A stretch of 64,000 nucleotides of DNA, from NCBI RefSeq assembly GCF_000003815.2, contig NC_049993.1, forward strand, positions 17,564,842-17,628,841, written 5' to 3'. The notes under the pieces are model-generated. The model saw only the letters and a list, made by a program, of their open reading frames with translations. It made no database searches and was not told the DNA's origin. Shown piece by piece: positions 18,996-57,185 of the stretch. The position numbers and the translations under genes were made by a program. How positions within the stretch are numbered: position 1 is the stretch's first letter; the number at the start of each line of letters is the position of its first letter. This stretch comes from Branchiostoma floridae. Taxonomy: Eukaryota > Chordata > Leptocardii > Amphioxiformes > Branchiostomatidae.

Positions 18996-19025
18996 TTCGG
19001 TGGTTATAGCAAAGGACCAGGCGTT

Positions 19026-19787: not shown

Positions 19788-19789
19788 CC

Positions 19790-30139: not shown

Positions 30140-30314
30140 ATGGCCACGGAGGCGACCAGTATCGAATGGGACTTCCTCGACAACGACACGGCGATGTTCA
30201 ACGACACGGCCGGCATGCCGCACGTCATGAGGGGGCCAAGTCCGGAGTTTCTCGCCAAAGCAGCGAAGTTCAACCTCTTCTACAACATCATGACTTACTT
30301 CATACTCGTCATAG
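30140..30314 (+). CDS. Receptor 1 exon 1: N-terminus and first half of TM1
   Basis: Encodes residues 1-58 and the first base of codon 59. It ends CTCGTCATAG followed by GTGAGG. The extracellular N-terminus is acidic and has two N-glycosylation sequons. Intron 1 (30315-32350) is the longest of the gene. Confidence 0.88.
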
Positions 30315-33300
30315 GTGAGGACTTCTGACATTTACTATATTTTGCACTAAATATCAATTTAAGTTTTATGTACTAAAGCACGTATTAATTTTTTGTACAT
30401 GCCAAATTCTATTTGTATTGCCATTGATAGCAGGCAAATAAAAGCTAGATAAGACATTTATCTTCTGTCTATCAGAAATAGGTTCACCATGAATGTCATT
30501 GTCTGTTTCAAGATTGTCAGTGAAGCATGTAATACTCCCGTTGGGGGCATTATGTATTCCAATATCACTTTGAAAAGGCTGGAGTTGTTTCAAAGACATG
30601 GTGAAATTTCTTCAAAGCATCTTGCCTTTTTTCAAAAGGTCTATCGACTTAATCAACGAAGCGGTTGTACTCCCATTTGGGAAGGATCTACACCAAGGTT
30701 ACGTTGAAAAATGCTTAGACTGGTACTTTCGTGGGGGGCATTATGATCCTAAGTTTGAGAACTTTATTGAACGACAATTGTACATGGTACATACCTTTAT
30801 GATATAAATAATTTGACTTTCGTAAACTACGGTAAAGCAATAATTCAGATTAAGACTCAGTATCCATAAATTGAATATTGAAAGAGGCAGATACTCCAAC
30901 GTATCCCCTGACCAAAGGTGTGTTACCCACAAAATAAAGGGTAGATAAAAACTGTATAAACTGTAAAAGATCCCTGGTTTAATGATTCAAAGTTATCTCC
31001 TCATCAATTCAGCCTTAGTCTGCTATTCCTTAAATTAAGAACATGTCTAAATTATTGTACAGACTAAAAGGCATTTCTTTTTAAATATAGAGTATATCTT
31101 ATCAAAAAGGTTGCACTAGGTTGCATTGTAAACATGTTACACGAATTAGTAGGTAATCAGTTTACTTGTCAAACTCGGTAGAATGTAAAACAGCATACGT
31201 GCACCTGGGTCAGGTAAACAACAGTCACATACATGTAAATCAGCAATACCACCCTCATTAGAGGAAACAATCGCAAAATGGGTGGGTTGGGTGCTGCACT
31301 CAAAATGTGAAGCTCATTTCTATAACGTCAATGAACAAAAATCTGACGCTAAACAAACTCCAACAAGATACAAACACAGAAGAGTATATTACACAAGTTT
31401 ATAACGTTACCCCCTCCCCACAGAGCAAGGTGTCAATAACAAACACATTTACAAACTGTTAAAAACCGTTGTAATTTCACATTAGATGACTTTCGTAAAA
31501 TACTCCTAGCTTCGCATAGCTACAGTTCAAGACAACAGGTGCAATGTCCGCTTTTAATTCAAAACTTGACTTTTTGGGTTATTTTTCAGATAATTGGGAA
31601 CTTACAAGAACTTACTTACTGGTACTATATCACCTCACTAGTAATATCTGCAAATTAACCACATGGCTCAGCTAGTAAAATCATCGTCTCTCAAGTTTTA
31701 AAAGGGCTGACAAGATATAGACTTACCTTTTATGTACATACCGAGTCGAACTTGTATGCTGTCTGGAAACGACGTCATCGAGACCATAATACTCTTCTGA
31801 CCCGCGGTCAAAGTTCATTCATTATCTGTACCTGATTATCATATAACGTCGCAAAAGTAAACCGTACCCCATTCTACCAGCATGTCTCCGATTAATCCTT
31901 AAGATCGGTAACGTCACGTCACGTGCATGAAAATTATGGATTCTTTACAAAACGTTTGACAGAAACACATTGCCAGCATGATATACAACGTCAGGAATTG
32001 TCTTAACTATCATAATGATAAGCCATTTTATTTGCAAGTTCATGCCCGAAGGCTTGTGGCAAGTACATGATAAAAAGTACATGTACATGATAAAACAGTA
32101 GTTATTATAGAAAGAGACCAGTGGAAATCTAGCGTTGGCTATATCTATGGACATGTTGATTTGGAGTGTATTTTAGGAGCAAATGAAGACGAAGAGTCCC
32201 ACTTTTTCACAGTTTGTGTTTCTGTGTGCTTTTAAGAGAATAGTGGCTTTCTGTTAGTCCCTGAATGTAGGGAATTTTTCATTTTGACCATATCTACTTC
32301 AAAGATGTATTTTCTTCCGTGTAAACGAATCTTACTTGATGTATTTCTAGGAGTCCCCGGCAACGTGTTGTCGTTCGTGGTGATGATGGGCCCGCGGCTG
32401 AGAAAGGCGCCGTCCAGTTTGTACCTGGCCGCCCTGGCCGTGGTGGACACCATCTTCTTACTGACTTCAGTAGGGCTGCAGGTACAGTGTTTCTGATGTG
32501 TTTTTTTTTTTTCTTCTTCAGCGTGTTTGTCTTTTAAACACCGCAAATGATGATCAGATTACGATGTATTATTTTCTGACCACAAGTACAGTGACAATTG
32601 CCGTAATGACCAAAGCCGTTCTTCTTCTTCTTTCGCTTTAGGCTACCAACTTACTGGAGACTTTTGTAACCTACATACCGACTGTATGGTTTGACCCACT
32701 CACACCGGGAAGGTCCCCTATTCTTTTCGATGAGTGTGGCGGGTTCTTTTACGTGCTTGGGGTATGGCTCCCCCCAGACATGAGTGTACCTAGTACACAG
32801 GAGTTAGGCAGATGAAACTAGTTGGATTCTTACTCTACGACTCAGAGGTAGAGTTACTACCCACTTGACCGCTACGAATACTTTCTGTGTCGATTATTTG
32901 AACAGATACTTCACGACGAGGACATCATCCACGCCAGTGACGTGTACTGCAAGCTGACCAAGTTCCTGGTGCGTTCCTCCGGGTACTTGTCTGCCTGGAT
33001 CACCACGGCCTTCACGGTGGAGCGGTACATCGCGGTGTGCCACCCCATGCGCAGGAGCGCGCTCTGCACGATGGACAAGACCAGGAAGGTGAGCACTCAT
33101 CCTTCATTCATTCATTCGTTCGTTCGTTCATTTATTCTTTCATTCATTCACTCACTCTACTCTACTCACTCAGTCACTCACTTATAGTCTACTCACTCAC
33201 TCACTCAGTCTACTCACTCAGTCTACTCACTCAGTCTACTCACTCACTCACATCCTTACTCACTCACTCACTCACTAATTCACTTATCCAGACTCATTCA

Positions 33301-36188
33301 TTCACTCACTCACCCGCTCATGGCTCATCCACTGACTCACTCATTCACTCGCTCACTCTCAATCACTCGCCCATTCACTCCTTAACTCATCTACTTCTTC
33401 ACTCACTCTTATTCACTCATAAGTGACAAAATCATTGTGTGCTTTTGATTGCTGTGACTTGTACTAGCAACAAGCTCTAGCCCCAAATGGTAACGCACAA
33501 ATTAATGAGGCAGAAAATAAGGTCGGCGTCCCCCATCATGTTTGTACTTATTATTAGACTAGCCGGCTGACATATGCCTGGATAACCACATATGATCGGA
33601 TCAATATAACATAATTGGATAACCAGGACGACCTTTCTGCCTGAGGTCAGAAGTGGCTTAGGCTAAATTCTACGACATGATTTCGTACTATTCAGTGGAA
33701 AATTTGGATGAGTCCAATTTTTGTGTGGGTTATTACAGTTCAACTAGCTCGAGAACGACTTCTAAGGACACAGATGAACTTTCAAGTTAAGCCTTTCATA
33801 CACTCACTGCATGTATGGAGGGTGGACGGTTGTGCGGAGAAAAAGTATGCAGTGTATCATCATCTACTGGTGAAAGACTCGTCGATAGATCAATTATACT
33901 GATCTAAGAATCATGATGTAAGAAACCATCAGAGAGTGGCCACATTCTATGTGTTCTACGTACAGACTGAATTGTCTCATTAAGGGTCCTAAAGATTTGA
34001 CTAGCATATTTGCTTCCTGTTACCCTCCCCCCAGGTCCTGCTGGGGATGGTTCTAGTGGTGTGCAGTGTGAGTTGCCTGGAGTTCTGGGCGCAGGTTGAG
34101 CGGGAAAACATGTGCGTGTTCCGCGACCCGCAGACATGGCTCAACATCACCATATACGACATGACGGCGGGCAGGCTCATTCCAACTGCCGCGGTGGGGG
34201 TCATCAACATAGTCATCGTCATCCGGGTTCTACAGGTGTGCGCTTTGTTCTTTTCTATTCTATTCTATTCTGTTCTATTCTATTCTACTCTATTCTATTC
34301 CATTCCTTTCCATTCTATTCCATTGGATTGGATTCGATTCTGCTCTAATTTGTTCTACTCTATTCTGTTCTGTTCTGTTCTATTCGGTATTCTATTCTAT
34401 TCTATTCTATTCTATTCTATTCTATTCTACAGGTGTGTAGTTCATTCTATACTTTTCTCTTCTATTCGATATTCTATTCGGTATTCTAAACCGTATCTAT
34501 ACCGTATCCTCTATTCGGTTGTTGCACACAAAGCAATGGATACCCAACTAACCAGCAATGATTATGCTAGCTAGCCGTCGTGACATAGACATTAATTGCG
34601 TGCGGAAAATTGTCTGTACTTTATTTGGTTGATTTGGCATTTTGTTATATTACTTTGGTTCGCGGCCAGGGATGACCAACTAGCCAGTACCTATTTCAAA
34701 GAGCTAACAAGAATGTGACGAAGGAATTCTTCAAGAAAATGATAAAACTTATACGAACATGTTGCCTTAGCCCACCTTAAGAGTCGGTCCAGTTTTGAAA
34801 GGTCTTCTTCTTCGCTGCATTTTTACAGACACAAAAGAACCGTCAGAACTTGTCCAAGTGTGCCAAGGAGACGGAGAAGCGTCAAAACCAGATCACGGTG
34901 GTCCTGTTCACCGTGTCCACCACCTTCTTCCTCCTCACGGTCCCCCAGTCCGTCTCCGTAGTGTACGACCTCTCCTCGCACGGCGGGCTGCACGGCGGGC
35001 TCCAGGACATCGACGAAGACACCTTGTTCCGCAAGCAGGTCAGAACTTCAAAGACTCTCTGTACCCTTAGGGACTGCTGGCAGTGATTACATGTGTTCGT
35101 ACAATGTGATAAAACCTGATCTAATTAGTTGAATCATTTTAGATGTGATGTAGTTTGTTTATGAGGCATATGTATCTAGTAGTAACCCGTGTACTTGTTG
35201 TAATTCGCATTCGTAATTTAGTTATAATTTGTGTTTGCATAAAAAGCCGCTGCTGTGATTGAAATTAAAAGCCTCCACGACTGCATGCAAGACTGCTTTT
35301 CTTTCGGGTCATTTATGTATTTGTGAAACGAATAGATAAACCAGTCTACTACCACAGGTCACCAACCACACCCTGGCGCTGATGTTCAAGCTCAACTTCT
35401 CCGTCAACTTCATCCTGTACTGCGTGACGGGGCGCCGCTTCAGGGAGGCCTTCCTGCGCATCTTCTGCAGGTGTGGATTCTATTCTATTCTGTTCTATTC
35501 TATTCTATTTTATTCTATTCTATTCTAGTCTACATTATTCTATTCTATTCTATTCTTTTCTATACTGTTCTATTCTATTCTATTTTATTCTATTTTATAC
35601 TGTTCTATTCTATTTTATTCTATTCCATTCAAGTCTAGTCTACACTATTCTGTTCTATTCTGTTCTGTTCTGTTCTATTTTATGCTATTCCGTTCTATTG
35701 TATACTATTATTTCTATTCTATACTACACTATTCTATTTTATTCTATTAGATTTTATTCAATATTATTCTATTCTATTAATGATATTGTTTATTTATATT
35801 CTATTCTATTCTATTCCATTCTATTCTATTCTATTCTATATTTATATTCTTTTCTATTCTATTCCTCTTCAGGTGCCTGCCCGTGGAGTACCGTGGCGGG
35901 AAGAGGGAGCTGCTGTACAAGAGCAGCCGGTTCACTCAGAGCACCCGCTTCTCCAACTACTGCCACGCGGTGCAGCCTGGGTCCGCGTCCACTCCCATGG
36001 GCCTGTCGTGTATCGACCACAGCACCATCTCGCTGCACTCCCTCCATCCACACATGAACTACTCGGTCTCTAAACACTCCAATCTGAGCGTCACCACACC
36101 ACTAACTCCCGCACCGCTGCCGTCAGCTGATTCTGATGCCTCGTCGGCTAAGAATGGGGGCGCCAAGTTTCAGACGTCGCGAGTGTAG
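30140..36188 (+). CDS. Class A GPCR gene 1, seven exons, neuropeptide-receptor type
   Basis: Joining seven exons (30140-30314, 32351-32481, 32906-33088, 34035-34235, 34829-35038, 35358-35470, 35873-36188) gives 1329 nt, a 442-aa protein with every intron GT-AG and phase-consistent. The start ATG lies in AGGATGG, a strong context. The protein has seven hydrophobic segments: GVPGN in TM1 (Asn63), LAALAVVD in TM2 (Asp91), Cys117 and Cys190 for the extracellular disulfide, ERY at 141-143 in place of DRY, Pro213 in TM5, LTVP (266-269) in place of CWxP, and NFILY (317-321) in place of NPxxY. NDT sequons at residues 15 and 21 suggest a glycosylated N-terminus; there is no signal peptide. The best family guess is FMRFamide-receptor-like or GPR139/142-like peptide receptor at the plasma membrane. 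The ligand is unknown and the subfamily call is weak. A tail-to-tail paralogue lies at 40389-46253. Confidence 0.9.
30315..32350 (+). other. Intron 1 of receptor 1
   Basis: 2,036 bp, GTGAGG to TTCTAG. It is mostly unique AT-rich sequence. A probable - strand retroelement 3' end (32020-32105) is the only repeat I recognise. ORFs here are short and lack motifs. Confidence 0.85.
32020..32105 (-). mobile_element. Probable retroelement 3' end
   Basis: TTTATTTGCAAGTTCATGCC, CGAAGGCTTGTGGCAAGTAC match TTTATTTGCAAGTTCGTGCC, CGAGGGCTAACTGCAAGTAC at 57123-57185. On the - strand it reads GGGC(A/T)(C/T)GAACTTGCAAATAAA, a polyadenylation-type end. Two copies in this window. Confidence 0.55.
32351..32481 (+). 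CDS. Receptor 1 exon 2: TM1-TM2
   Basis: Residues 59-102. Contains GVPGN, the first intracellular loop GPRLRKAPSS and LAALAVVD of TM2. Flanked by TTCTAG and GTACAG. The phase-1 start completes codon 59. No counterpart was found for the paralogue in this window. Confidence 0.92.
32640..32880. repeat. Probable dispersed repeat in intron 2
   Basis: CCCTATTCTTTTCGATGAGTG, TGGCGGGTTCTTTTACGTGC and GAGTTACTACCCACTTGACC look like a mobile, mutated coding or structured remnant rather than intron sequence. I recognise it only as a repeat of a type common in invertebrate genomes. There is no second copy in this window. Confidence 0.3.
32906..33088 (+). CDS. Receptor 1 exon 3: ECL1, TM3 and ERY motif
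   Basis: Residues 103-163, 183 nt, phase 0 at both ends. Carries Cys117 and FTVERYIAVCHP. The central 141 bp (32927-33067) differ at only two positions, both silent, from exon 3 of the inverted paralogue. Intron donor GTGAGC. Confidence 0.96.
33095..33425 (+). repeat. (TTCA)n/(CTCA)n tetranucleotide expansion in intron 3
   Basis: Begins seven bases after the exon 3 donor. Imperfect TTCA, TTCG and CTCA repeats fill about 330 bp. The Ser/His-rich ORFs over it are read-through of the repeat. Confidence 0.95.
33695..33745. mobile_element. Half-copy of the 26524-26632 MITE terminus
   Basis: GAGTCCAATTTTTGTGTGGG followed by TTATTAC matches the right arm of the 109-bp MITE. The left arm is not visible. 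Confidence 0.5.
34035..34235 (+). CDS. Receptor 1 exon 4: TM4, ECL2, TM5
   Basis: 67 codons, residues 164-230, phase 0. Includes LEFWAQVE, the loop Cys190, the sequon NIT (201-203) and RLIPTAAVG of TM5. Same length (201 nt) as exon 4 of the paralogue. Donor GTGTGC runs straight into a pyrimidine microsatellite. Confidence 0.95.
34243..34500 (+). repeat. (TTCTA)n pentanucleotide expansion in intron 4
   Basis: TTCTA/TTCTG/TTCCA units. TCTACAGGTGTG from the exon 4 edge (34229-34240) reappears at 34426-34437 inside it, a possible local duplication. The coding-looking FYSILFYS translation is an artefact. Confidence 0.93.
34829..35038 (+). CDS. Receptor 1 exon 5: ICL3, TM6, ECL3
   Basis: 70 codons, residues 231-300, phase 0. 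The basic loop with ETEKRQNQ leads into TM6 (FTVSTTFFLLTVPQ). The usual CWxP tryptophan is absent. The paralogue splits this exon in two after codon 21. Confidence 0.94.
35358..35470 (+). CDS. Receptor 1 exon 6: TM7 and start of the C-tail
   Basis: Residues 301-337 and two bases of codon 338. NFSVNFILYC replaces NPxxY, then GRRFREAF of helix 8. Ends CTGCAG before GTGTGG, and codon 338 (Arg) is completed by the first base of exon 7. The paralogue has no intron at this point. Confidence 0.93.
35475..35870 (+). repeat. (ATTCT)n expansion filling intron 6
   Basis: Nearly all of the 402-bp intron is ATTCT-type repeat, up to the acceptor CCTCTTCAG. It is similar in composition to the repeat in intron 4. 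Confidence 0.95.
35873..36188 (+). CDS. Receptor 1 exon 7: cytoplasmic C-tail
   Basis: Completes codon 338 and encodes residues 339-442 to TAG. Cys337 and Cys339 next to helix 8 are candidate palmitoylation sites. The rest is Ser/Thr-rich, as expected for arrestin or kinase regulation. Its last ~60 coding bases are duplicated in the 3' UTR. Confidence 0.92.
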
Positions 36189-36480
36189 AACTTTATCTCT
36201 GCTAGTATCCAATCATGGATTACCAAACAGCCCTAAACATTCATTGAGCTATGAGGGACTTGGACTTTAGTCATGCTCGTTTTTAGAAAATGAGGCTCAG
36301 CGGAAAGCTGATTCTGATGCCTGGTCGGCTAAGAATGTGGGCGGCAAGTTTCAGACGTCGTAAGTGTAGAAACTCTAGTTTCCAACTCATGGATTACCAA
36401 ACAGCCCTATTTAGAAGAACTATGAGAGTCTTGTATTTGTGTCATGTAAACCTTTAGAAGATGATGCTCATCGGAAAGAA
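36125..36480 (+). repeat. Tandem duplication of the receptor 1 coding end and 3' UTR
   Basis: AGCTGATTCTGATGCCT, GTCGGCTAAGAATG, GCAAGTTTCAGACGTCG and ATGGATTACCAAACAGCCCT occur at 36125 and again at 36306, with an offset of about 181 bp. The second copy lies after the stop and is diverged, so it is a non-coding relic. Confidence 0.88.
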
Positions 36481-37480
36481 TTTATCCATCAGTTAAATGT
36501 GCTCATTAAAGCCTTGGTAACATTTGTCAACCAGGGCCCGACCGAGCCGCTTTCTGGAAGGACAAGTAGGATATAAAAGACACCAAATGACACAAAATGT
36601 AAAAAGAATAGTCGTGGGTATCATGTAATCTGTATGCTTTTCGTATACATTTCTATTTTTTTAGTATAATTTTCGTCTCTTGTAAAGCCATAAATCTTGG
36701 TGTAATTTTGGAACAAGGGGGGGGGGGGGGATTTACAAAGCTATTCAGCTTTAGATCAAGACTGAGGCCCGGGCTAATAAATTCAGGCGCCCGATGCAGA
36801 AGTTTCATGTACCCTTGACAGAATCATATCATGTGTTTGTTTGTGGACATTGGCGTCTCAATGTCTTCGCTGTTGATCGGAAATCATCCACATGGCTTAA
36901 TGTGACTTTCTGTGGCGTTTGTAGCTGTTATCTGTGAGTACTTAGTTCACAAAAAAACAGGTGGATATTCAGGATATTTTTCATGAATATAAAGAACAAT
37001 TGAATCAATTGTATCTATGTCCATTTCTAGAAATGTATTTTTATGGGTATTGTTGTTGAAGTTATAAAGTTGTGTAGTCTCATATTATGATGCCGCATAG
37101 AATTACACTATAAATATAATTAAATAGGAGACGGGATTTGAATATCAAAAGAATATAATGATGTGACTGTTCTTTTCAATTGGATGAAAACTCACAATGT
37201 ATAGTTGTACTGCGTTGGTCAGCTGGTTTGGCCGTTTTGAATAATGTGTTTGACATCGATATATCTTGAGAAGGTATTATCAAATTTGATGTGCCATAAG
37301 CGTGTGAAGTATATGTGGTTATCATATGATATTTTGATTGTATAAATGGCATTACAAAAACAACATCAGATTATATGTATGTTATATATGTGTGTGTGGC
37401 GTTTGATATTTGCTGTGCATTATTATGTAAGATTTACTTGAAATTTTAATGTCCTGTGATTTGAATGAAATTGGAATAAA
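36481..37480 (+). other. Probable 3' UTR of receptor 1
   Basis: AT-rich with no ORF. It has a 15-G run at 36717-36730. AATAAA at 37475-37480 is the best polyadenylation signal; another AATAAA is near 36776. The extent of the transcript is inference. Confidence 0.45.
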
Positions 37481-37540
37481 CAAGAAAAATTTAATAACTC
37501 TTGCTTGGTTTTGAATTGTTTTGCTTGTGTTTTTCTTGTG

Positions 37541-37700
37541 TTTGTGTGTGTATGTGTGTGGGGTAGTGTGTGTGTGTGTGTCTGTGGTGGTGTGTGTGTG
37601 TGTGTGTGTCTGTGGTAGTGTGTGTGTGTGTGTGTCTGTGGTAGTGTGTTTGTTTGTATGTGTCTGTGGTAGTGTGTGTTTGTGTCCGTGTTAGTGTGTA
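37541..37700. repeat. (TG)n-rich microsatellite
   Basis: GTGTGTGT runs separated by CTGTGGTAG(T). The His/Thr ORF on the - strand is its translation. Confidence 0.95.
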
Positions 37701-37719
37701 TGGTCTTTAGCACACAACC

Positions 37720-39954
37720 ACTCCATGAACTGCCAGGCCAAGTAGATCAATTCTTTTTAACAATTAAAGCCGTCTTTTGGCCCTGATATTTGATTTATGA
37801 CGCTCTCAGCTATACTGACTCCGTTGTGGAAATTTACAGTTCCAAAAGTTCTTTCATTGAAGAGATTCATTAGTAACGTACACAATGCACAGAGCTGCGA
37901 GAACTAGGTCACTTCGTGAACAAAATGGACTGATAGTCATGGAAAATTTGTAGCCACGTGTTTTTCCCTTTACAAAGTAGTCACCGCTTGATAAAAAATC
38001 TATTAACAAAAGCTCTTTAATTCTACTACGTCATTCCGGACGTATTTCAGCCAACAATGGCTTCATAATCCTCCATCCCATCGGCCACAAAATGATCGGC
38101 CACTACTGGATGAGTAAGGTTTATGTAAGCTTCCCGTGGCAAAAAGATTGACATTTTAACAGCCGAAACCCCATAAAAGTACAGATTGCTCCCATGAAGC
38201 TCGCGTTAATGGCGCACTAAAAGGCCACTGCCATCAGGGGGGTCATTAAGGTCGCGACCTATGACCTGTTCTTTTCTCCACACTCAAAAGGGTCATAGAG
38301 GTCACCAAACATTTGCACTTGAATATGAGCGTTTCACTACGACTGATTGTGGCCAGGAGTAAATGTGCAAAAATTATTGGGCGCAACTCGTACACAGAGC
38401 AGCGCCAGCATTGTATTGGCAAGACATAAAAGTCTTTCAACAGGTATTTAAGTGGGTAGCATGATAATGACTATTACTATGTTATGTGTGGCACTGCCTC
38501 ATGTGTGGTAATAGTAGCATTTTTCAAGTCATCATCATCATCGGCGTCCGCTCGTGGCCGATCGAGTATGAGTTCATGTCAAGCCAGCCTTTGTTAGTTC
38601 TGGCATGAAAGCCTTTGCGTGACTTTGTTTAAGGTGGATCGCAGGATGCGGCCTGGGACCCACGCACTTTGGGAATTTGCAGCCATTTTTCAAGTGGAAG
38701 TGTGCTAAATCACTTACCCTGAAGGACACGTTGAAGAGGGCGATGGGCCAGAAATGTGTGGATGTCTTCTACTTGTCACTGGGACTCTGAGCGATTTTTT
38801 GTCGCCAGAATAAGAGCTGAGCTTCATGGGTGCATTCCTGTTCTGATCCAATAACATACTCTAGCCAACGAATCTAAAACACCCCCTAGCGAGAATCGTC
38901 TTTTATGACAGAGTGAGCGGAAATGTAAGTCGTGATAACGTGCAGACCATAATTATTCATAATTACTGTCAGTTTATATAATAACAACACTGATAATGGA
39001 AAATACTATCAACGTCAACATCGGTTTTGATCAGACGTTATACAATCTTCACCATGGCTTTTTTCTGTCTTGAATGAATGAACTCACTTAACATCACCAA
39101 CAATAATGTGTAGATTTACACTCATATCTATAACTTTCCAAAACACAGGCAAGCGCTTTGAATACAGCACATACGGTATTATTTCCTCAACTGTACTGAC
39201 ACCTGACATTCTAAGCCACGAATTTACATTCAGCTTCTCTTAACATATTTTCGCCAGGTCACGTGTCACATATGGCTCCATGACTCGAACAGATCTGAAT
39301 ATATCTTATCACGTGACAACTCTCGCAAGTCACAATGCAAAAATGGCTAGGTAAATACATGAAATTTTGTTTTGTTTGTAGAAAAAGATTATTAAAAAAA
39401 ACAGGTTTGGCCGCATCTGGTTGTAAAACGGTATTACAGTTTCTATTTTGTAGTTTGTAGTTCGATAATTTGCCTTAATTCTTACTGCACAAAATATTCC
39501 TTTGTCTATTTTCTATCTTGTAGTTGACTGCACGAAAGTTATCAACGAAGCTTTCATACTTTAAAGCTCTCCAATGCAACGTCCCCAAGTTTAATGTAAT
39601 CCTTCACATCTAAACTATCCATGTCTATGGGGATACGCTAGAAAACATATCATAATTTCACATATCATAATTTCAACACACATTTTTTTCAAAATTGGAG
39701 GAATACGTAACTCGGCGGAAAAATGTTAATTATGTTTTATCTTCACGGAAGATAAACATATTTTGTTTGCTCTGTTTCTTCTTCTTCTCCAAACAAATAA
39801 GGTCAACGACCTGGACCAGACATCTGTCACCATGGTTACCGGTAAAGTAGCAGGCACCCTGTGGTGTTCGGTTACATAATGTAGCAAATGGCTTAGCACA
39901 GAGCTAGAGGGCACAGGTCACTAGATAATAATGAATAAACATACAGTAGTCAGT
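37720..39954. other. Intergenic region between the tail-to-tail receptors
   Basis: No gene is recognised. CATCATCATCATC at 38525-38540 followed by GGCGTCCGCTCG and GGCCTGGGACCCACGCACTT (to 38690) may be the - strand end of a (GAT)n-tailed retroelement, weakly supported. A short direct repeat TTTCACATATCATAA occurs at 39656-39680. Confidence 0.4.
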
Positions 39955-39962
39955 GTTAGACT

Positions 39963-40318
39963 CAGGGCTCTAGCAAGCGTCCGTTTTTCCGTCAATTGAC
40001 AGAAATTTGCTGCGTGTGACTGGCGGAAAAATTTTAAAACAAATCCGGGTTGACGGACAAAAATCCTTGGTGGAAGCTTAGTGACATGCGGCTTGGGGAC
40101 GCCGTCCACGGCCGTAAAAGCCACACACTGTGTGTTTTGCTATTGTTATTATTGTTGACGATGTGTGTCGGCGCCCTTTTGCATACGATAATCTCATTAA
40201 AAACCAGTTTTTCAAGGTCTCAATTCAGTCTCTCTGACTCCTGGAATAGTGTTTTCGCGGTTTTCGCGACAATGGGAATTGGCTGACGGAAAAAAAATTC
40301 GAGCTGGCTAGAGCCCTG
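39963..40318. mobile_element. hAT MITE with 8-bp target duplication
   Basis: Exact inverted ends CAGGGCTCTAGC and GCTAGAGCCCTG, flanked by GTTAGACT on both sides (39955-39962, 40319-40326). An 8-bp duplication and CAGGG ends identify a non-autonomous hAT element of 356 bp. It lies just downstream of the stop of receptor 2, perhaps in its 3' UTR. Confidence 0.95.
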
Positions 40319-40388
40319 GTTAGACTACAATATGTGAAGGTGAACCTTGTATATATTTTGTTTGCAAATGTCACATTTCTAGTGAAAG

Positions 40389-40739
40389 TTACACTTCTGT
40401 TACCGCAGCACAATCAGAATCAGGTCCGTTTTCAGAGCTTGTTCTGTGGTTCCTGCCTTCGTCACTCTTCTCGTGGAGGACCTGAGAGTTGAAAGGCGTT
40501 CGTGACGTCATGTAGCGGCGGCGATCGAACGCGCTGAGTTCCCTGGAGCCCGGCAGGTTCGCAAACACGGCGGTGTTTACAGGGTTCATCTGTAGGTCCT
40601 CCACCTCGTACTGAGTCCGCACACAGCGGCACAGCACGTCCACTACCACCTCCCGGAACCGCCTCCCCGTCAGGGAGTACAGGATGAAGTTGATGGCAAA
40701 GTTTAGCTTGAACATCAGACCGAGGGTGAAGGCGATGAC
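40389..40739 (-). CDS. Receptor 2 last exon: TM7, helix 8 and C-tail
   Basis: 116 codons and stop. Combines the parts coded by exons 6 and 7 of receptor 1: NFAINFILYS, GRRFREVV, then DVLCRCVR continues without the intron found after CR in receptor 1. The acceptor on the - strand is TATGGCAG. Confidence 0.92.
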   Translation of the reverse strand, partial: VIAFTLGLMFKLNFAINFILYSLTGRRFREVVVDVLCRCVRTQYEVEDLQMNPVNTAVFANLPGSRELSAFDRRRYMTSRTPFNSQVLHEKSDEGRNHRTSSENGPDSDCAAVTEV

Positions 40740-43700
40740 CTGCCATATCATACAAACAGCATCGTATTATTATCACGCCATGCAAAAAATAAACTATACC
40801 ATACCTAAATTTTTTTGACAAATGTTATGTCACAAAGTAGCATAGAAATACTCCATCCGATGCATGTAATAGTTCCCTTTATTACCTACCGTAGATTCCA
40901 CTCGATATAGTCCACTAGTATTGTAGTAACTGAAAGTGTTGTAATATAACGTGTATATGTAGTATTATGTCATACCTGTGACGCGAAAACGTTCGATACG
41001 GGTGTTTCGGACCAGGCCGTACGCTTCCGTATCGCACAGGTTCGAAAGGCATATCACACAGGCTCCATTCGAGTGAATCGAATTGTTTCGAGCGGGCCGA
41101 ATACGGCTTGATTGGCAATTCGAATACCTGATTCGGACGTTGGAACATTGCTGTTGCAACACTTTTGGTTCGAGGGCACCAAATTTGTTCAACTTCTGGC
41201 GCATTTCGCATCAAAACATGGGTTTTCTCAGGTGGGTATGTCGGGCGATCCGACCCGCGGTCGGGCTGATACCTTGGGCGATGCGAAATACACCGTGTTT
41301 TATTCTATATTTAGACTGTAACTTCTGTTATCTATATATTACCATACATTGTCAATGACGCAATTGTTTCTCAATAAACCATCTATCTATCTGTCCTTTA
41401 AACTTAAACGGATTGGGCAGACTGCAGCGCCATAGACAGCCGCTTCCACATTGTTGTTGCTCTATACCTAAATGTTATGTTTGTCCTAGGTTTGTCTAAC
41501 TTGAAATTGTTCGTTGATGCAATAAAAAAACGGCAATGACCTGCTTACGGAAGAACGTGAGCTCGTCGATGTCGTCCATGGTGCGGGAGGCCAGGTCGTA
41601 CACAACCACCACGGACTGGGGAACCGTCAGCACGAAAAACGTGGTGGACACCGTGAACAGGACGATGGTGATCTGAATCAATGTGGGGAAAAAGTTGTAT
41701 AAAACAACATTTGGTTCATACTTTTCTTCAAGTAAATGCTAGTCATACCAAAGACGTTAAAATGGTACATGCTGCTTTCTCTGCTTAACACTCAGCACTC
41801 ATGAGTTAAACACACATCACTACCAGCGGACTAGCCTCCTGCTGTAGTAGCTTGCACGAATGTGTGGCCTAAGGGCTATAGAAATGGAGATGGGCGCCGC
41901 CCCTAAGCATCTATTACAGATGTACGGACAACTTTTTAATGCATGAATAAATAAATAGACGAATATAGCAGATAGAGACGAATTAGTTGTATGACAACAT
42001 GAAATGCAATCAAAATTTACTAGAATTGAGTCGTTCTGCCAGTTCATTCTCGTGACGCCAGTTTATTGTCCAGCGTCATAGATGTCACTCCAGAAGTAGT
42101 CTCCATAATCTGTCCATTTTTAGAGATTAACTTGTATCTAGTTATCAAATCTATAGCTTTTGTAGACGTCGTACTCAGTTTAACGTAAAAGTGTGAACTT
42201 AGCATCTGTCTAACAACTTTGTCTACAACATCTACATAAATATACGAATCTCTTTAGATCTGTTGAAGCTTCCAACCTGTTGTTGCCGCTTCTCCGTCTC
42301 TACAACTGCAACCGACAGGCTGCGACGGTCCTGCTTTTTCTGTAAATAGAATCAAGTACTTGAACGAGAGGTCTTCCAGCTGTTGTTTTCAATTGAGCAG
42401 CCCTTAGATACAGTCTTAGCTTTGCTGGGTTTTATTGGACGTTTCAATGGCGGTTCTGGTCATCTACATCTGCAAGGTTATACATCAGATTTTAGAGTAG
42501 TCAACCAATTCAAGGCCTGGTAGCAGTCGTATGATCGTCGCACTGGGGTTGTTTGGGGCATAGTCGTCCGTATGCCATACAATACAAAGGCTGCCATAGA
42601 TCCGTGCGGGATGTTATGTTACAGATCAAATTAGTACGAAATCCTAAAACGAATTTGACCGTTTCTCAGCAAAGACTCTTTGCAGTTAAAACAAACGTCT
42701 AAATATTTCTAACACCATAAGCACCTACGACATTTTGGTGTACTTTGTGGTACAGATACCTACCCGCAGTACTGTGGTGGCAATGATTGTGTTGAGCACC
42801 CCCACCGCTGCAGTTGGTATGAGCCGCCCGGCAGCCATGTCATATATGGTGATGTTGAGCCATGTCTCTGGATCGCGGAACTCACACATGTTGTTCCTTT
42901 CCACCTGCGCCCAGAACTCCAGGCAGCTCACACTGCAGATGACTATAGCCAGCCCCAATAGCACCTGCAAACACGATTAGCATGATAAAGACAAGTTTAT
43001 CACAATTGCTTGAAGATTAGACCGTAAACATATCTTTTACTACCTTTCTGTAACTGCAGATGACTATAACCAGCCCCAATAACACCTGCAAAATGATTAG
43101 CACGATAAATGAATGACTGAATGAAGACCTTTATTGCACATTTTTCCGCACCAGGCTAAGTACAGGTTACAACAAGACATGTTGAAAAGATACTGTAAAC
43201 AAACACAAAATGAGGCTATTGTTGTACAAAAGAGACGGCCCGCCTCAGCGAAGTCTGGTTCTTGTTTCCGACGAGTATGATGATGATGATGATCACAGTT
43301 GTTTTTGAAGATTAGCCCCTGTATTTTTCTTACTCTCTCTCTCTTCACTAGAGGCGGTGACTGCGTCACAACAGCTGAGCTGAGCTCATACGATTTGACA
43401 AAACTCTCAACGAATTTCCAAGATTTTTTTCAAAATAAAGATTTTACCCTTTTTGTCTTTAAAATCACACTTTAAAATCATACCTCCAGCTGTGGCCACT
43501 GCACGGTCGCTTAATGCGGTGTGATACGTTCTTCTTCACACTCACAATACGATACAAATCAATTGTCACTCATATATTGAAACATATGACAAACATAGTT
43601 TGGTAAGAATGAGCACGGAGTGATGAGTGGGGTTTGTCCTCTTTTCAACTCTGTGTAGCTTTACAAAGTCAGCTGCAGTATAAACCCAATCTGTTCAGAC

Positions 43701-46253
43701 AAATTAATCTATAGCCTTATTGTTAATTTTGGCCTGGGGTAATATTGGAATAGATGGCTTCTATTATTAATTTCTCCCGGCCGTCAGGTATAATTAAGCA
43801 CATCGGCAATGCCACGGGGGCGGTTTCATTATTAAATGTTCCTGAGGGTAGCATTTTTCACGAGTCGGAAAATCGACATCATCGACCATAAGTTAGTGCC
43901 TTGTTGCAAGAACACTTCTCTGGAACGACGAATATGTCGATATTGTAGTTTAGATAGAATAGAGTATGAACAGCATTTGTAGTAGAATTTAGATTATACA
44001 TGTACAACAAAGAGGGAGCTGAACTTTATAGACTCATAGAACATACGTTTCCCTACTCTATACCTAACTAAAAAATTCATATTCCTAATGAATGTAGACA
44101 AACCTTTAATTGTGCATGATATCTGTTCCTACATTTTTAGTATCATGAAGAAGAGAGAAGAAGTCGAATTCACTTAGTACAATATGATGTGTTGGTTGAC
44201 TTTGTATATACATGCCATGTATCTGTCAACTATTCTTTTGTTGCGACCTGTACTTAACCCAGTGGAAGTATCTGCACTATAAAGGTAATTCATTCATTCA
44301 ACCATTAATTCATTACGATAGTGAAGAGATCCAGACGGTATTCCTATTCTTTTCTGACTACTTTATATAGATACCCATGAAATAAAGGGAACAAACGTCA
44401 ATGCTAACGTTACATAAAAGATCACATAAAGAGCAAAAATTAATAGATGATTTTTAATATCGTACCCCAGAGAAAAATAATGTGGTTGGAAGGAGTGCAG
44501 CATACATGTAAAACATGCCTAAGGGGAGAGTCGAAAACAAATTAATGATTCGATACTCTAATCAGCAAAAACAGATGTATAATATATAAGAGCACAGGGC
44601 ATCCGGTGGTTGCAGTTGCGTTCAGTTACATTTTTATGAAGATATTAATCAAGCATAACATAATAGGCGAACAAACTTTAAGCCCTAAACAGGAGCATGT
44701 TACTAAGATAAGAAATGACAAGAAATAGATTATTTCAGATGTTATCAGGTACACTGAGCCTGCAAAACGACCATATGGATGTATGTGTAGCATACACAAA
44801 GGCATTGAGGACGACATAGCATATCATTGCTTCGTTTTGTGAACCAGTCCAGGACAGATTCATGTATGAGAGCTCCCGGCGATGACTACTATTGATTTTA
44901 GCGTGTTAGGATACCTATCAAGCATCCAATGAAATATTAGTTAATAGTCTCATTAGGTTCGTAAGTCATTTGGAGGCTAATTACTTTATTCTAAAACTTG
45001 TAAGCTGCCTTTTTCAGCAGAAAATTGAGAACAAAAGTGATTACGTGAAGAGATATTTACCTATAAATCTATAAAATACTACATTCAAATATTTTCCTGG
45101 AGTCCAGTAAACGGGTTGAAAGTACAAATTCTTTCAAATATATCGAATCTGATGTGACTGGTAGCGAATCCTTTATTTTTATTTTGTTGTCGTCATTTAA
45201 AAAACACATAATCCGAACATGCACCAATGACCTTCAAATGACTTTGAATTCTTTCATTGAATTTCGAAATGTATACTCCTTGTGAATATAAGACGATTCG
45301 ATGTCTGAAACACAACTTGTCACCAACTTTGTTACGGTACGTTACGTCCACTACTGATGTTCCATGTGCCGTATTCAGATAGGTCCGTTTTTCACGCTTT
45401 GAACTTGAACTGTTATTGATTACATAGACCATATGGGATCCCATTCTGTAATTCCTAGTGCCCTAGGGCCTATGAAAGGGCTAAGGGTGATTTACAAGAC
45501 GAACGACTTGCCATTTTATGGGAAAGAGACGGATAGAGCACCGACATTTTGTTGTCACAACTTATATACATGACCACTGTGGGTTGGTGGGTTGAAAAGA
45601 TCCAAGATGGTGTATAAAATCATTCTAGAAAGGGATCATCTATAATGTCGTGCTCTCTATCAGATTGTCTGCCACCTCACTCTGTCTGTTTCTTTCTGTG
45701 TGTCTCTCTTGATATGCAGAGCTGCCAGAAGCAAATACAGGCACTTAATAGCATTTCTCATATGACAAAACAATTTCTCTGCGTCTTTAACCCACCAACA
45801 TGGCGGCCGCCAAAATTGTGTCATCTTAGTCACGCGACCCTCATATCAAAAGCGAAAGCTTGTGGGATAAGATTTACCGCGCACCCTCTTGGTAGTCTGC
45901 ATGGAGCACTTGATAGCATTTCTCGCAAAACACGTAATTCCAAGCATACTATAAGCCAGTACTTTTGGGTTAAAGGTTACCACCAAAATTGCGTCATCGT
46001 AGTCACGTGACCCTCACATATCATAAGCGAAATATAAAAGGTTTCCTAAGGGTTAATGTTTACCACGCACCCTCTTGGTGGTCTGCATGGAGCAGAGCGC
46101 GCTCCTGCGCATGGGGTGACACACCGCGATGTACCGCTCCACCGTGAAGGCCGTGGTGATCCAGGCAGACAAGTACCCGGAGGAACGCACCAGGAACTTG
46201 GTCAGCTTGCAATACACGTCACTGGCGTGGATGAGCTCATGGTCGTGGAAAAT
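40389..46253 (-). CDS. Class A GPCR gene 2 (paralogue), TM3 to C-terminus; 5' exons not found
   Basis: Five exons read on the - strand: 46253-46071, 42964-42764, 42339-42277, 41672-41541, 40739-40389. All are phase 0 with GT-AG introns and join to 309 codons plus stop, with no in-frame stop or frameshift. They begin at the residue matching Ile103 of receptor 1 and carry FTVERYIAVCHP, the ECL2 Cys, RLIPTAAVG, FTVSTTFFVLTVPQ and NFAINFILYS of TM7. Exon 3 is 52/61 identical in protein to receptor 1. The counterparts of exons 1-2 (N-terminus, TM1, TM2) are not visible from 46254 to 64000. They may lie beyond the window, be too diverged to see, or be missing, which would make this a truncated gene. 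The C-tail (about 80 aa) is unrelated in sequence to that of receptor 1. The ligand is unknown. Confidence 0.85.
40740..41540 (-). other. Intron of receptor 2 between TM6 and TM7
   Basis: 801 bp. 41320-41400 holds CTCAATAAACCATCTATCTATCTG, which looks like the + strand 3' end of a retroelement with an (ATCT)n tail. The preceding GC-richer part 40980-41290 may be its body, but no coding frame is recognised. Confidence 0.55.
41541..41672 (-). CDS. Receptor 2 exon: TM6 and ECL3
   Basis: 44 codons, starting ITIVLFTVSTTFF and ending FFRKQ. Equivalent to the last 49 codons of receptor 1 exon 5, with the third extracellular loop five residues shorter. Confidence 0.93.
42277..42339 (-). CDS. Receptor 2 micro-exon: third intracellular loop
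   Basis: Only 63 nt (21 codons), KKQDRRSLS...ETEKRQQQ, aligning exactly with the first 21 codons of receptor 1 exon 5. Flanked by TTTACAG and GTTGGA on the - strand. The exon is too short for ORF scans but is well supported by the paralogue. Confidence 0.88.
42764..42964 (-). CDS. Receptor 2 exon: TM4, ECL2, TM5
   Basis: 67 codons, the same length as in receptor 1. LEFWAQVER, NITIYDMAAGRLIPTAAVG are conserved. About 41 of 201 nucleotides differ from receptor 1, many of them silent. Confidence 0.95.
43020..43115 (-). repeat. Duplicated edge of receptor 2 exon 4
   Basis: CTGCAGATGACTATAACCAG, CCCCAATAACACCTGCAAAA, TGATTAGCACGATAAA at 43054-43110 copies 42933-42990, with an offset of about 121. 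It reproduces the splice acceptor and the first ~30 coding bases. It could act as an alternative acceptor but would not yield a full exon. Confidence 0.85.
43112..43230 (-). mobile_element. 3' terminus of a non-LTR retrotransposon with (ATTC)n end
   Basis: On the - strand it reads CCTGTACTTAGCCTGGTGCG, then TGTGCAATAAAGGTCTTCAT, TCAGTCATTCATT. Same family of ends as 12635-12775 and 44180-44305. It lies directly beside the duplicated exon edge. Confidence 0.65.
43231..44179 (-). other. Part of receptor 2 intron, no feature recognised
   Basis: A (GAT)n tract is at 43277-43292. Otherwise unique AT-rich sequence. Confidence 0.5.
44180..44305 (+). mobile_element. 3' terminus of a non-LTR retrotransposon with (ATTC)n end
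   Basis: GACCTGTACTTAACCCAGTG, GCACTATAAAGGTAATTCAT, TCATTCA. Opposite in orientation to 43112-43230. No coding part remains. Confidence 0.65.
44306..45740 (-). other. Part of receptor 2 intron, no feature recognised
   Basis: 1.4 kb of AT-rich sequence. Short ORFs only. Confidence 0.5.
45741..45908 (-). repeat. Duplicated edge of receptor 2 exon 3 with adjoining intron
   Basis: The block from GCACTTAATAGCATTTCTC to CCCTCTTGGTAGTCTGCATG repeats the following 45906-46094. It includes a copy of the exon 3 donor and the last ~25 coding bases (GCGCACCCTCTTGGT against ACGCACCCTCTTGGT). The offset is 165-186 bp because of indels. A diverged, non-coding relic. Confidence 0.85.
46071..46253 (-). CDS. 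Receptor 2 exon: ECL1, TM3 and ERY motif
   Basis: 61 codons, 183 nt, as in receptor 1. On the - strand it is bordered by GTCTTGCAG and GTGCGT. Contains YCKLTKFLVRSSGYLSAW and FTVERY. This is the most upstream exon that I can find for this gene. Confidence 0.95.
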
Positions 46254-46579
46254 CTGCAAGACAACGATTGAGGATGAGGAGGATTGATTTATGTAGCAAT
46301 TTCAATCTTTACATCCATACACGAAATAAAGCGCTTACCAACAAAGTTTTGATCAGTCCTCTGATCTTTGTCAAGTTGGAATGATGCAAATTCTATGTCA
46401 CACATCCGGATCGAAATTGTGACGTCAGTAAATGGTCAAAGGTGCTTGAAAGTCGGTATTGGCCCCCGTCTCGGTTATGGGAAGGTTGGCGGCCGGGACC
46501 GACTTACAAGCAGCACATGAACTTACATGAACACAGATGAACTTAAGTATAAGCAGTTGATTTTCAAGCCTCTTCTCGA
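46254..46579. other. Upstream of the last visible receptor 2 exon
   Basis: No TM1 or TM2 coding sequence is seen on the - strand. Short ORFs only. Confidence 0.5.
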
Positions 46580-46830
46580 AGTCTATAAGACGTTATGTGT
46601 AATTTTAGTCATTCCTACGCAACTTGGTAATGATAACAGCTTTTAAGTAGAGCTCTGGGGAAACAGACAGTTGAAACATCTTTATCTATCTTCACTGAAT
46701 CATTCAATGACTGACTTTAAATGTATAAATAAATCTACAGGCTAAGCTTTATCAATTTCAGCGTCTTGGTTTGAAGCAGTGGAAGTCGAAATCTCACACT
46801 TCGTATGCACAGGTTCATCGGTCTTCCATT
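46580..46830. repeat. Copy 1 of a duplicated segment (uninterrupted)
   Basis: GACGTTATGTGTAATTTTAG, TAACTTGGTAATGATAAC-like, AGACAGTTGAA, CAGCGTCTTGGTTTGAAGCA and ACTTCGTATGCACAGGTTCAT recur at 46920-47760. The second copy is split by the mariner element. Confidence 0.85.
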
Positions 46831-46954
46831 GACGTAGTAGAAAACGTCATGCCCTTAATTGAAATGAAAGCTGCTCTTTTCATGAATGACTTTAAGACAC
46901 AGACACAAGATTCTTTCTATGTGACGTTATGTGTAACTTAGTCATTCCTATATA

Positions 46955-47532
46955 CGAGGGGCGTTCAAGAAGTAATCCATCTGACCCATTTCCCAAAGGA
47001 GGAGATTAATGAAACTTGGTGCAGTTATTAGTCTTTCTCTTCATAGGAATCACCCAGAGTTATGCATTTCTACCATCGTTTGATGCAGCTCTGTATACCG
47101 TTTTTGTAGGACGCCCCAGGTTGGTCCTGCAACAGATGCCTCATCAATGGCAGAAGAGGGACGACCAGGTCTGGGAGCTGTTTCCACAGACTTCCGGCCA
47201 TGTTTGAATTCACAATTCCAGCGTTTTACAAGGTCATATGATGGGGAATCATCACCATAAGTTTCTTTTATTTCATCAAAAGTCTCATTTGGTATGCGTC
47301 CTTTCAAATACAAAAACCGGATCACTGCGCGACACTCAACTGGCTCCATTTCACACCTGGTCCATTTCACACCTGACTCAGTTCAAACACCTTTAAATCA
47401 AAAACCAAAATTAGTTCAGAGCTGTTTTTTGCAACATAACCCATAGAGATATGAATCATTACATATGCAAAATTTCATCTAGATCAAACAACTGGAAGTG
47501 GGTCAGGTGGATTACTTCTTGAACGCCCCTCG
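46955..47532 (-). mobile_element. Internally deleted mariner-type element
   Basis: 578 bp with 34-bp inverted ends (CGAGGGGCGTTCAAGAAGTA, ATCCATCTGACCCA) differing at one base, and TA on each side (46953-46954, 47533-47534). It encodes only an N-terminal piece of a transposase. TA duplication and the encoded helix-turn-helix identify the Tc1/mariner superfamily. The empty site in the paralogous copy 1 confirms the insertion. Confidence 0.95.
47050..47370 (-). pseudogene. Truncated mariner transposase, N-terminal DNA-binding part
   Basis: Starts MEPVECRAVIRFLYLKG at 47349, or 21 bases earlier in frame. It continues SYDLVKRWNCEFKHGR and ETAPRPGRPSSAID. This is the first helix-turn-helix of mariner/SETMAR-type transposases, plus the PGRP AT-hook-like linker. 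After about 75 residues the sequence jumps to GVLQKRYTELHQ, which looks like the extreme C-terminus. The catalytic DD(34)D core is therefore deleted. Such a protein could still bind the inverted ends but could not cut. Confidence 0.85.
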
Positions 47533-47792
47533 TATGTCTCGTAACTTGGTAATGATAACAACTTTTAAGTAGGGCTGTGGGGACAGCAGACAGTTGAAGT
47601 ATCTTTATTCATCTTCAATGAATCATTCACTAACTGACTTTGAATATATACATATATCTACAGGCTTTATTTTTATCACAATTTCAGCGTCTTGTTTTGA
47701 AGTAGTGGAAGTCGAAATCTGCCACTTCGTATGCACAGGTTCATTGGTTAAGATGGATGGTGCTCTTTTCAGGAGTAATACACAGAGATAAT

Positions 47793-48280
47793 TGTACGTT
47801 ACTGTAATTTCATGTCTCATCTGTATGTTGATTGTAATTCTGTGTTATCTAATACTATATATACCGCATTTCCGTCTCCGGGAAAATTAGCTGTCAGTTC
47901 GGTAGACAGCTGAAGTAGAGTTTTTACCCCAATCAACTCCCAGATGATGAAGAGAAGTAGAGTGATGGTACTTTACTGTAATTTCATACTTCATCTATAT
48001 GTTGATTGTAATTCTGTGTTATCTAAATCTATACATTGCATTTTCCACTCCCTGAAGAGTGACTGTCAATTCGGTAGACATCTGAAGTAGAGATTTTACT
48101 CCAATCAACTCCCAGATGATGAAGAAAAGTAGAGTAATTGTACGTTTAAGTAATTTCATGTTTCATCTGTATGTTGATTGTAATTCTGTGTTATCCATAG
48201 ACTGTATTTCCGTCTCCAAGAAGAGTGGCAGTCAGTTCGGTAGGCAGGTGTCCTATTAATTCCCAGATGATGAAGAGAGA
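47793..48280. repeat. Tandem repeat, ~173-bp unit, nearly three copies
   Basis: TGTATGTTGATTGTAATTCT, GTCAGTTCGGTAGACA, TGAAGTAGAG, CCAATCAACTCCCAGATGAT recur from 47821, 47995 and 48167. Confidence 0.9.
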
Positions 48281-48722
48281 TTCAATCAGTCCCTTTATCC
48301 TTCCCGCCGACTGTCTTTTCTGTTCAAATCCAAACCGAAAATAGAGGCGTCACATACGGAGATAGTGTTGGCACACAAGTCCGCCCTGGCGCCAAAAGTC
48401 GTCTAAAGTCACTTCCGTGCGTCAATGCTAATGCCAGGTAATACCGGGGGAGCAAACTCTGATTTCCGATAGGGGTATCTTCTTCTCTGCGTGGCGCCTC
48501 CTTAACTACCTCGCTGTACTTAACCCGGCGATTATCCTTAATGCAATAATTATAGCTGATCGAGTTAGTCACGTAGTCCTTTGACAGGCTGACTTTCCCT
48601 GATAATCCACCACTCCGCATGGGCCTATCGGATTTACCTGAGCTTCCAACCGAGGATGTTCGAGAGATACCAGGATCTATGCATGTGTCAAGGGGACCAG
48701 TATGAGACATCCGCACGCATAA

Positions 48723-48915
48723 AGGTGGTATCTCACCGCACTCGGGGCACCGGTGCGGTACTACGGGGTTCGTTCACTGCGGTTGTAATATTTTCACCGA
48801 TATGATTTAGATATTGCATAATACGTAAAACTATGACTTAGAAGACACCAAAATACTCAAAGCGTAAGAAAGTTCGTTCTTTGTCTCTGAAATTCGTTGC
48901 ATAATCTTTCGAACC
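48723..48915. mobile_element. TWA-flanked MITE (AGGTGG ends), right end lost
   Basis: Preceded by TAA and starts AGGTGGTATCTCACCGCACT. The right arm stops inside CGAACCCCA and runs into the duplicated flank, so the outer right terminus is missing. Confidence 0.8.
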
Positions 48916-49050
48916 CCACACGTACTCCCCTGACGGGCTGATTTCACTTGATAATCCACCACTCCACATGTTAAACCGCAAGTGACTATCGGATTCACCT
49001 GAGCTTTCAACCGAGGATGTTCAGGAGATAACAGGATCTGTGCTGTGTCA

Positions 49051-49401
49051 AGGTGGTATCTCACTGCACCTGGGGCATAGGTGAGGCACTGCGGGGTTCG
49101 TTCACTGCGGCACTGTTGTGATCATCATCATCATCTCGGCCGAGTTGCCCGGACCAGGTCTATTCTCTTCTTCCAGACATCTCTGTCCCCCAATGTGTTC
49201 TTTATCACTGTTGTCATATTTTCGACGATTTTTTTTATGTATGATTTACCTATTGCGTAATACGTAAAAGTATGACTTAGAAGACAACACACAAAATACA
49301 CAAAGCGTAAGAAAATTCGTTCTTTATCTCTGAAAGTCGTTGAGTACTTTTCGAACCCCGCAGTGCCGCACCGATGCCGCAAGTGCAGTGAGATACCACT
49401 T
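49051..49401. mobile_element. TWA-flanked MITE (AGGTGG ends) with a nested insertion
   Basis: AGGTGGTATCTCACTGCACC on the left, GTGAGATACCACT on the right. It is longer than its relatives because ~90 bp of retroelement are inserted at about 49121. Confidence 0.88.
49121..49207 (-). pseudogene. Tiny 5'-truncated retrotransposon end inside a MITE
   Basis: The - strand encodes LGDRDVWKKRIDLVRATRPR and a stop, then a (GAT)n tail. The DRxxW pattern is typical of the last residues of some non-LTR ORF2 proteins. CACTGTTGTGAT (49111-49122) and CACTGTTGTCAT (49206-49217) flank it as an approximate target duplication. Confidence 0.75.
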
Positions 49402-49656
49402 TTAGATGCTCAGATAGAGTTAACCCCGCGTGGAATAGTAATCTGTGGGGAATAGGAGTAGGATTTCCATGTCGTAAATTAGAAATCACAGTTCGGCAAG
49501 CATTGTGCCCCTGAGAATGAGAAGAGAACAAAGTGTTTCTTCTTACAAACTATTGTAAGCTTTTATTGGTCATCCGTACTAGTCTTTGTATAGGTCGATG
49601 AAGGATAGACATCCACGTAATGAGATACTCAATACAAAAAAATTATCATAACAAGC

Positions 49657-50006
49657 GAACGGGGGAATGGAAAAATAAGAAAAATCTTTCTTCACCTTAT
49701 TTTCGTACCTTATCTTATAATCATGTCTTTAAGTGTATCGTAAATGAAGACAGATGCTCAGTACAAATTACGTAAGCCCCTGGATAAGTTAGTAAACGAC
49801 CAGACGTTTCAAACAGTATCCATTGCCTTTCGTACCTGACGGATACTGTCTGAAATGTCTTACTGTTAACTAACTTATCCAATGGCTTACGTAATTTGTA
49901 CTGAACATTTGTCTTCATAAACGATACATTTAAAGACACGGTTATAAGATAAGGTAAGGAAATAAGATTAAGAAAGATTTTCCTTCCTTTTTCTAGTTCC
50001 CCCTTT
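49657..50006. mobile_element. Long palindromic MITE
   Basis: The left arm starts GAACGGGGGAATGG and passes AAAATCTTTCTT, ACCTTATCTTATAA, GTCTTTAAGTGTATCG and ACAAATTACGTAAGCC. The right arm repeats this in reverse complement and ends AGTTCCCCCTTT. The arms are ~165 bp around a short centre. No target duplication could be assigned. Confidence 0.85.
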
Positions 50007-50103
50007 AAGTAATTTGTACTGAACATTTGTCTTCATATACTTTGGCCAAGTTAGGAATAAAAGCCTAGTAGGAGCTAATTGGCCTAGGAGTGACCGGCCT
50101 TAA

Positions 50104-50410
50104 GTTGGGGTCACACATGCGTATATATTCAAGTCCGTTTGAGGTGCGTAGGAAGCTCTTAGTCTCTACCGGGCTCCACAGGTCGTGGGAAAAATAGTAC
50201 AACTTGGACAAATATAGATACATAACCTGCCATATGAGTTAGCTGACCGAGAAGTATGGTTAGCGACCCAGCTAACTCGTCTGACATGTTACCTGTTTAC
50301 GTTTGTCCAATTTCTATTATTTTTCCAACGACCTGTGGGGCCTGGTGGAGGCAAATACTCCCATGCGCGCCTCATACGGACTTAAATATATATGCACGTG
50401 TGATCCCACC
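50104..50410. mobile_element. TTAA-flanked palindromic MITE
   Basis: TTAA at 50100-50103 and 50411-50414. Inverted arms start GTTGGGGTCACACATGCGTA and continue TATATTCAAGTCCGT; the right arm mirrors this (GTGTGATCCCACC outermost). The inner ACAGGTCG / CGACCTGTGGGG also pair. TTAA suggests the piggyBac/Kolobok group. The ends differ from those of the 7.46-kb element. Confidence 0.88.
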
Positions 50411-50703
50411 TTAAGGTCGCAAACAGTTCTCCTCTAGCGTGTTTTCTGTCTAATTTGTGGCCAAATTGTCCTATTTTTCCAGTGACCTGCGGAGCGTGGT
50501 AGAGGCTAAGTCATTAAAACTTTCCGACTTAATTGCTGCTTTATCCGTGGCTGACCTACCGACCACAAAGTCGGTCACCTTTCTGGCTTAAAGGTTAGAC
50601 GTAATTTCCAACATGGATTTAATGATCGGATATTCCGATTGAGGATTCTCTCGAGGTTTCACCTTCCCGGCTAATTGTATCATGGGTCAGGTCACTTCTG
50701 CCG

Positions 50704-52142: not shown

Positions 52143-52145
52143 TAA

Positions 52146-52850: not shown

Positions 52851-52854
52851 ATCT

Positions 52855-56349: not shown

Positions 56350-56352
56350 ATA

Positions 56353-57122: not shown

Positions 57123-57185
57123 AGAAGTTTATTTGCAAGTTCGTGCCCGAGGGCTAACTGCAAGTACATGGTATAAACATAGTAG
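57123..57185 (-). mobile_element. Probable retroelement 3' end
   Basis: Second copy of the tail at 32020-32105 (TTTATTTGCAAGTTCGTGCC, GCAAGTACATGGTATAAACA). Confidence 0.55.

Follow-up and report, generated by a model that had tools for sequence, protein, structure and literature searches.

Gene conversion between clustered paralogous GPCRs has been documented for CCR2 and CCR5, and the passages of that report used here name extracellular-loop segments among the limited stretches exchanged between these rhodopsin-type receptor genes (PMC2880985). Segmental exchange between receptor genes has also been proposed, in the portion of a study on phylogenetic mosaicism of human rhodopsin GPCRs that we cite, as an older process acting across receptor groups (PMC2684142). 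In B. floridae, non-crossover tracts recovered from a pedigree had a mean length of 99 bp and 90.9% of them were shorter than 200 bp, according to the section of PMC12500494 that deals with them. Here we describe two tail-to-tail paralogues, receptor 1 (R1) on the forward strand and receptor 2 (R2) on the reverse strand, which lie close together and inverted in a stretch of 64,000 nucleotides (the window), and in which the core of one exon shows far less silent divergence than do its flanks and the remaining exons. Like the CCR2/CCR5 pair as described in those passages, R1 and R2 are clustered rhodopsin-type GPCR genes with a limited segment in common; unlike that pair, the copies are inverted and interrupted by introns, and it is TM3 with the ERY motif that is homogenised, while the adjoining loop edges differ. 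The length of the R1/R2 tract falls within the range given for non-crossover tracts in that section of PMC12500494, although the pedigree tracts are allelic whereas the R1/R2 tract is interlocus and deduced from one sequence. Compared with the mosaicism outlined in PMC2684142, the event proposed here is recent and is seen at silent sites. As a probable conversion tract of less than gene length between clustered GPCR paralogues, the locus falls into a class already described, and no new process is involved. Literature searches on CCR2/CCR5 conversion and on amphioxus gene conversion, GPR139 and GPCR sets gave no title on this pair among the matches listed, and a search on GPCR homogenisation found none. 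The pair offers a sharp and self-contained case, with a sub-exon tract shared by inverted receptor paralogues whose flanking introns have no detectable homology. Phylogenies or age estimates based on the exon that encodes TM3 in receptors of this kind would mislead.

R1 is a rhodopsin-type GPCR gene of about seven coding exons at 30140..36188 (+), the 3' end being approximate, and was recognised from its translations, a Pfam 7tm_1 match and a match to GPR139; its exon limits are predicted and were set by eye on the sequence. R2 is present from exon 3 to the last exon at 40389..46253 (-), where 40389 is approximate. Proteins joined from the predicted exons matched Pfam 7tm_1 with 1.8e-24 (87 bits) for R1 and 3.4e-19 (69.8 bits) for R2, as against a curated cut-off of 30.5, and the nearest solved chain to R1 was GPR139 (1.5e-19). 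Exon 3 of R1, at 32906..33088 (+), has AG before it and GT after it, and we take it to encode the first extracellular loop, TM3, the ERY motif and the start of intracellular loop 2. Exon 3 of R2 was placed at 46071..46253 (-) by translation and by alignment to R1 exon 3, and exon 4, which served as the diverged comparison exon (34035..34235 (+) in R1), was placed in the same manner at 42764..42964 (-) in R2. All the R2 exons compared have open frames, and dN/dS between R1 and R2 is about 0.25 (0.19/0.77 where exons 4-6 align). When exons encoding TM1-TM2 of R2 were sought over 46254-64000, tblastn with R1 exons 1 and 2 gave weak matches only (E >1), and a four-row TM1-TM2 profile gave a best E of 3.1 among its best 12 rows, the control for this profile (R1 exon 2 at 3e-22) being partly circular as R1 is one of the four rows. 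R2 may be truncated at its 5' end or may contain a very long intron; its TM1-TM2 exons may lie beyond 64000, may have diverged or may have been lost.

An ungapped alignment of R1 exon 3 with R2 exon 3 spans 183 bases and contains 17 mismatches. The preliminary description had noted a stretch of 141 bp, 32927-33067 (+), differing from its counterpart in R2 exon 3 at only two bases, both silent. Realignment with 46232-46092 (-) gave exactly these two mismatches, TAC/TAT (Tyr) at 32947/46212 and TGC/TGT (Cys) at 33040/46119. Near-identity extends 2 bp beyond the 5' edge noted earlier, to 32925, and the island therefore comprises 143 bp, 32925..33067 (+) in R1 and 46092..46234 (-) in R2, with 92 bp as its longest stretch free of mismatches. 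The abrupt divergence described just outside the core was also seen, with mismatches at 7 of 19 bases at the 5' end and at 8 of 21 bases at the 3' end of the exon. The remaining counts were reproduced as well: the 9 differences among the 61 residues of exon 3 all fall outside the core, and 41 of the 201 bases of exon 4 are mismatched. Residue identity between R1 and R2 was 47/47 in the core, 52/67 in exon 4, 25/29 in exon 5b and 23/37 in exon 6. Comparison of the core with the remainder of exon 3 (2/143 versus 15/40 mismatches) gave a Fisher p of 1e-9 for edges that were picked post hoc.

Synonymous divergence per exon, the measure proposed earlier for judging the island, was determined by Nei-Gojobori counts with our own script, taking the core as 47 codons. 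The core showed a dS of 0.06 (2 changes at 33.7 silent sites) as against 0.77 when the alignable portions of exons 4-6 are pooled, in a comparison of two sequences with about 34 silent sites in the core. Taken singly, exon 4 had a dS of 0.79 and exon 6 one of 0.57, and the three segments of exon 5 that were counted gave 1.19, 0.79 and 0.87. These estimates leave out the unaligned stretch of exon 5 (R1, 9 codons; R2, 4 codons), codon 1 of exon 6 and the tails that follow this exon. Exons 1 and 2 of R1, for which the window offers no R2 counterpart, are likewise excluded. None of the 24 four-fold sites differed in the core, while 27 of 57 differed in exons 4-6. Among codons for the same amino acid with a silent alternative, a difference was seen at 2 of 45 in the core, as opposed to 45 of 118 across the other aligned coding sequence (Fisher 5e-6). 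The longest codon runs with at most 0, 1 and 2 silent differences were 29, 39 and 48 codons, compared with shuffled means of 12.4, 17.5 and 22.0, and the corresponding permutation p values were 7e-4, 1.2e-4 and 4e-5 (100,000 shuffles each, the last value representing 3 shuffles). This permutation resembles GENECONV without being that program, and codons are taken as interchangeable between exons. The exon 3 flanks carried 3.5 silent changes at about 7.5 silent sites, which are very few sites; since silent changes are present there too, the flanks seem to be of the same age as the remainder of the gene.

We consider a short, recent, non-reciprocal gene-conversion tract between the tail-to-tail paralogues to be the best explanation of these data, and hold it with good confidence. 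Conversion had been suggested on first inspection, and that suggestion is strengthened by the finding that silent likeness is confined to the island, pS being 0.40-0.60 in the aligned parts of the other exons. It was pertinent to weigh this against a constraint acting on the DNA itself, by which an element in the middle of exon 3 (an enhancer, a splicing signal, an RNA structure or an overlapping frame) would fix silent sites in both genes. The island does span the ERY motif and TM3, all 47 residues that it encodes are shared by the two copies, and it is the longer region most like GPR139. However, that likeness (18/47) is near that of exon 6 (13/37) and exon 5b (9/29), though above exon 4 (12/67), so that the island exceeds exons 5b and 6 only slightly in its conservation relative to GPR139. 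Ordinary exonic elements would be expected to constrain four-fold sites less strictly than was seen here. RNA folding z-scores against shuffles were -0.22 for R1, 0.15 for R2 and 0.18 for the R1 antisense strand, as compared to 0.43 for an exon 4 stretch, and thus gave no RNA-structure signal; Rfam returned no family for the R1 exon 3 region, searched for R1, up to E 1. Splicing enhancers usually act at exon ends, and since it is the ends of exon 3 that diverge, splicing signals are disfavoured as the cause. Out of five alternative frames, one (in-register antisense) was open in both copies, and it was open in 40% of synonymous resamples. We therefore regard constraint at the DNA level as very unlikely, and conversion as the preferred reading.

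If conversion did occur, a break inside or close to exon 3 in one of the receptors would have been repaired using as template the matching exon of the inverted neighbour, the two islands being about 13 kb apart. Some 92-143 bp spanning TM3 and the ERY motif would have been copied, and the transfer would have ended short of the exon boundaries; past these, no homology was detected between the introns. When 400 bases on each side of exon 3 were compared between R1 and R2, local scores were 9 and 10 as against shuffled means of 10.6 and 9.7. Synthesis-dependent annealing or another non-crossover route would account for such a repair. We infer conversion as the cause, this route of repair, and a single event in preference to repeated homogenisation. 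If exon 4 is used to approximate how exon 3 once looked, 20% of its bases are mismatched and its perfect runs reach 25 bp at most; an exon 3 diverged to that extent would have been a poor recombination substrate, so that conversion may have had to begin earlier and to recur. Such recurrent conversion, going on since the duplication while the edges wore inward, is possible and would look the same as a single event. As regards age, amphioxus heterozygosity is put at 3.2-4.2% in the part of PMC12500494 that reports it. Because the difference in the core (1.4%) is below this value, the event is perhaps recent enough to be polymorphic if the window is indeed from amphioxus, although the silent-site difference of the core alone, about 6%, is not below it.

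A tandem duplication at the 3' end of R2 exon 3 provided a second view of the age of the flank. Its first unit, 45909..46094 (-), with limits set by hand, comprises the 3' end of R2 exon 3 and the start of the following intron; its second unit, 45745..45908 (-), was found by alignment to the first and carries a relic of an R2-type exon 3 end (CSMQTTKR), in which one base in 24 is altered. The two units are identical at 129 of 159 ungapped aligned bases, gaps being uncounted, and their intronic parts at 106 of 135, i.e. about 21% divergence. Since the intronic duplicate has diverged by that much while the core differs from R1 by only 1.4%, the 3' flank of R2 appears older than the homogenisation of the core. 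Judged from these alignments, one exon seems to hold sequence of two ages, as conversion predicts. The tandem duplication has its breakpoint at 46094, 2 bp away from the position where the island ends on its 3' side (46092), either edge being uncertain by a few bases. An origin of the island and the duplication in one event was considered and is unlikely, given that 29 of 135 intron bases differ as against 2 of 143 core bases. The closeness of edge and breakpoint may be chance, the two events differing in age. It could also mean that R2 exon 3 contains a recurrent break site, where repeated template-switching repair homogenises TM3 while the loop edges diverge; we find this unlikely.

An error of assembly, in which reads or gap filling of one paralogue were put into the other, would likewise make the two cores alike. 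Assembly scars do exist elsewhere in the window, in the form of a 149-N gap and a 100-N gap, each with exact repeats nearby. However, both N runs are far from either exon 3, and the cores differ at two bases, so that the consensus is not a plain copy; such an artefact is accordingly quite improbable. A third paralogue elsewhere in the genome might have converted one or both copies, and the 570 rhodopsin-type GPCRs given for B. floridae in the relevant part of PMC2246102 make further copies plausible if the window is from a lancelet. Within the 64-kb window, however, no third copy of the island was present. An exact 36-base pattern from the island had 0 matches in viral_contigs, a search which says little. 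We consider conversion from a third paralogue highly improbable, and conversion between R1 and R2 remains our preferred account.

As to donor and recipient, a first test had placed the core nearer to R1 codon usage, but this was dropped as the signal was gone on leave-one-out. Leave-one-out codon usage per codon, where positive values are R1-like, ranged from -0.062 to 0.073 for R1 exons and from 0.011 to 0.235 for R2 segments. The two cores scored 0.087 and 0.049, and the other exons do not separate by gene.

Several differences in gene structure were observed between the two receptors. Within the region that is the single exon 5 in R1 (34829-35038 (+)), R2 has an apparent intron in 41673-42276 (-), at CAG|ATC, which seems to be an intron gain or loss relative to R1. 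The last R1 intron, starting from about 35471, is apparently missing in R2; in both cases the splice sites were judged by eye. R2 exon 4 has a second copy of its acceptor and initial bases on its upstream side, the copies at 42932-42989 and 43053-43109 (-) being 91% identical. By eye, the upstream copy at 43053-43109 (-) contains a possible in-frame mini-exon of 42 bases (VLLGLVIVICSYRK), followed by GT.

Both N runs of the window are associated with exact repeats. The 149-N gap at 3747-3895 is directly flanked by a 450-bp exact direct repeat (3297-3746 and 3896-4345), which most likely represents two haplotypes or contig ends left unmerged. A 53-bp exact inverted repeat (16496-16548 and 16788-16840) brackets the 100-N gap (16587-16686). 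Mobile elements were also found. A non-LTR retrotransposon has a long open frame at 19766-22648 (+), in which reverse transcriptase and endonuclease domains were recognised; the frame before it, 18837-19784, may be an ORF1 and gave no Pfam match. A candidate third receptor near 19.9 kb (tblastn with R1 exon 1, E 0.047) was rejected, since it overlaps this retrotransposon frame in another reading frame. A mariner-like remnant at 46952-47535 (-) has 42-bp terminal inverted repeats with 2 mismatches and matches HTH_48 (Mos1 transposase) at 1.4e-7. A repeat of roughly 205 bp flanks it on both sides, the two copies (46618-46822 and 47540-47748) being 87% identical.
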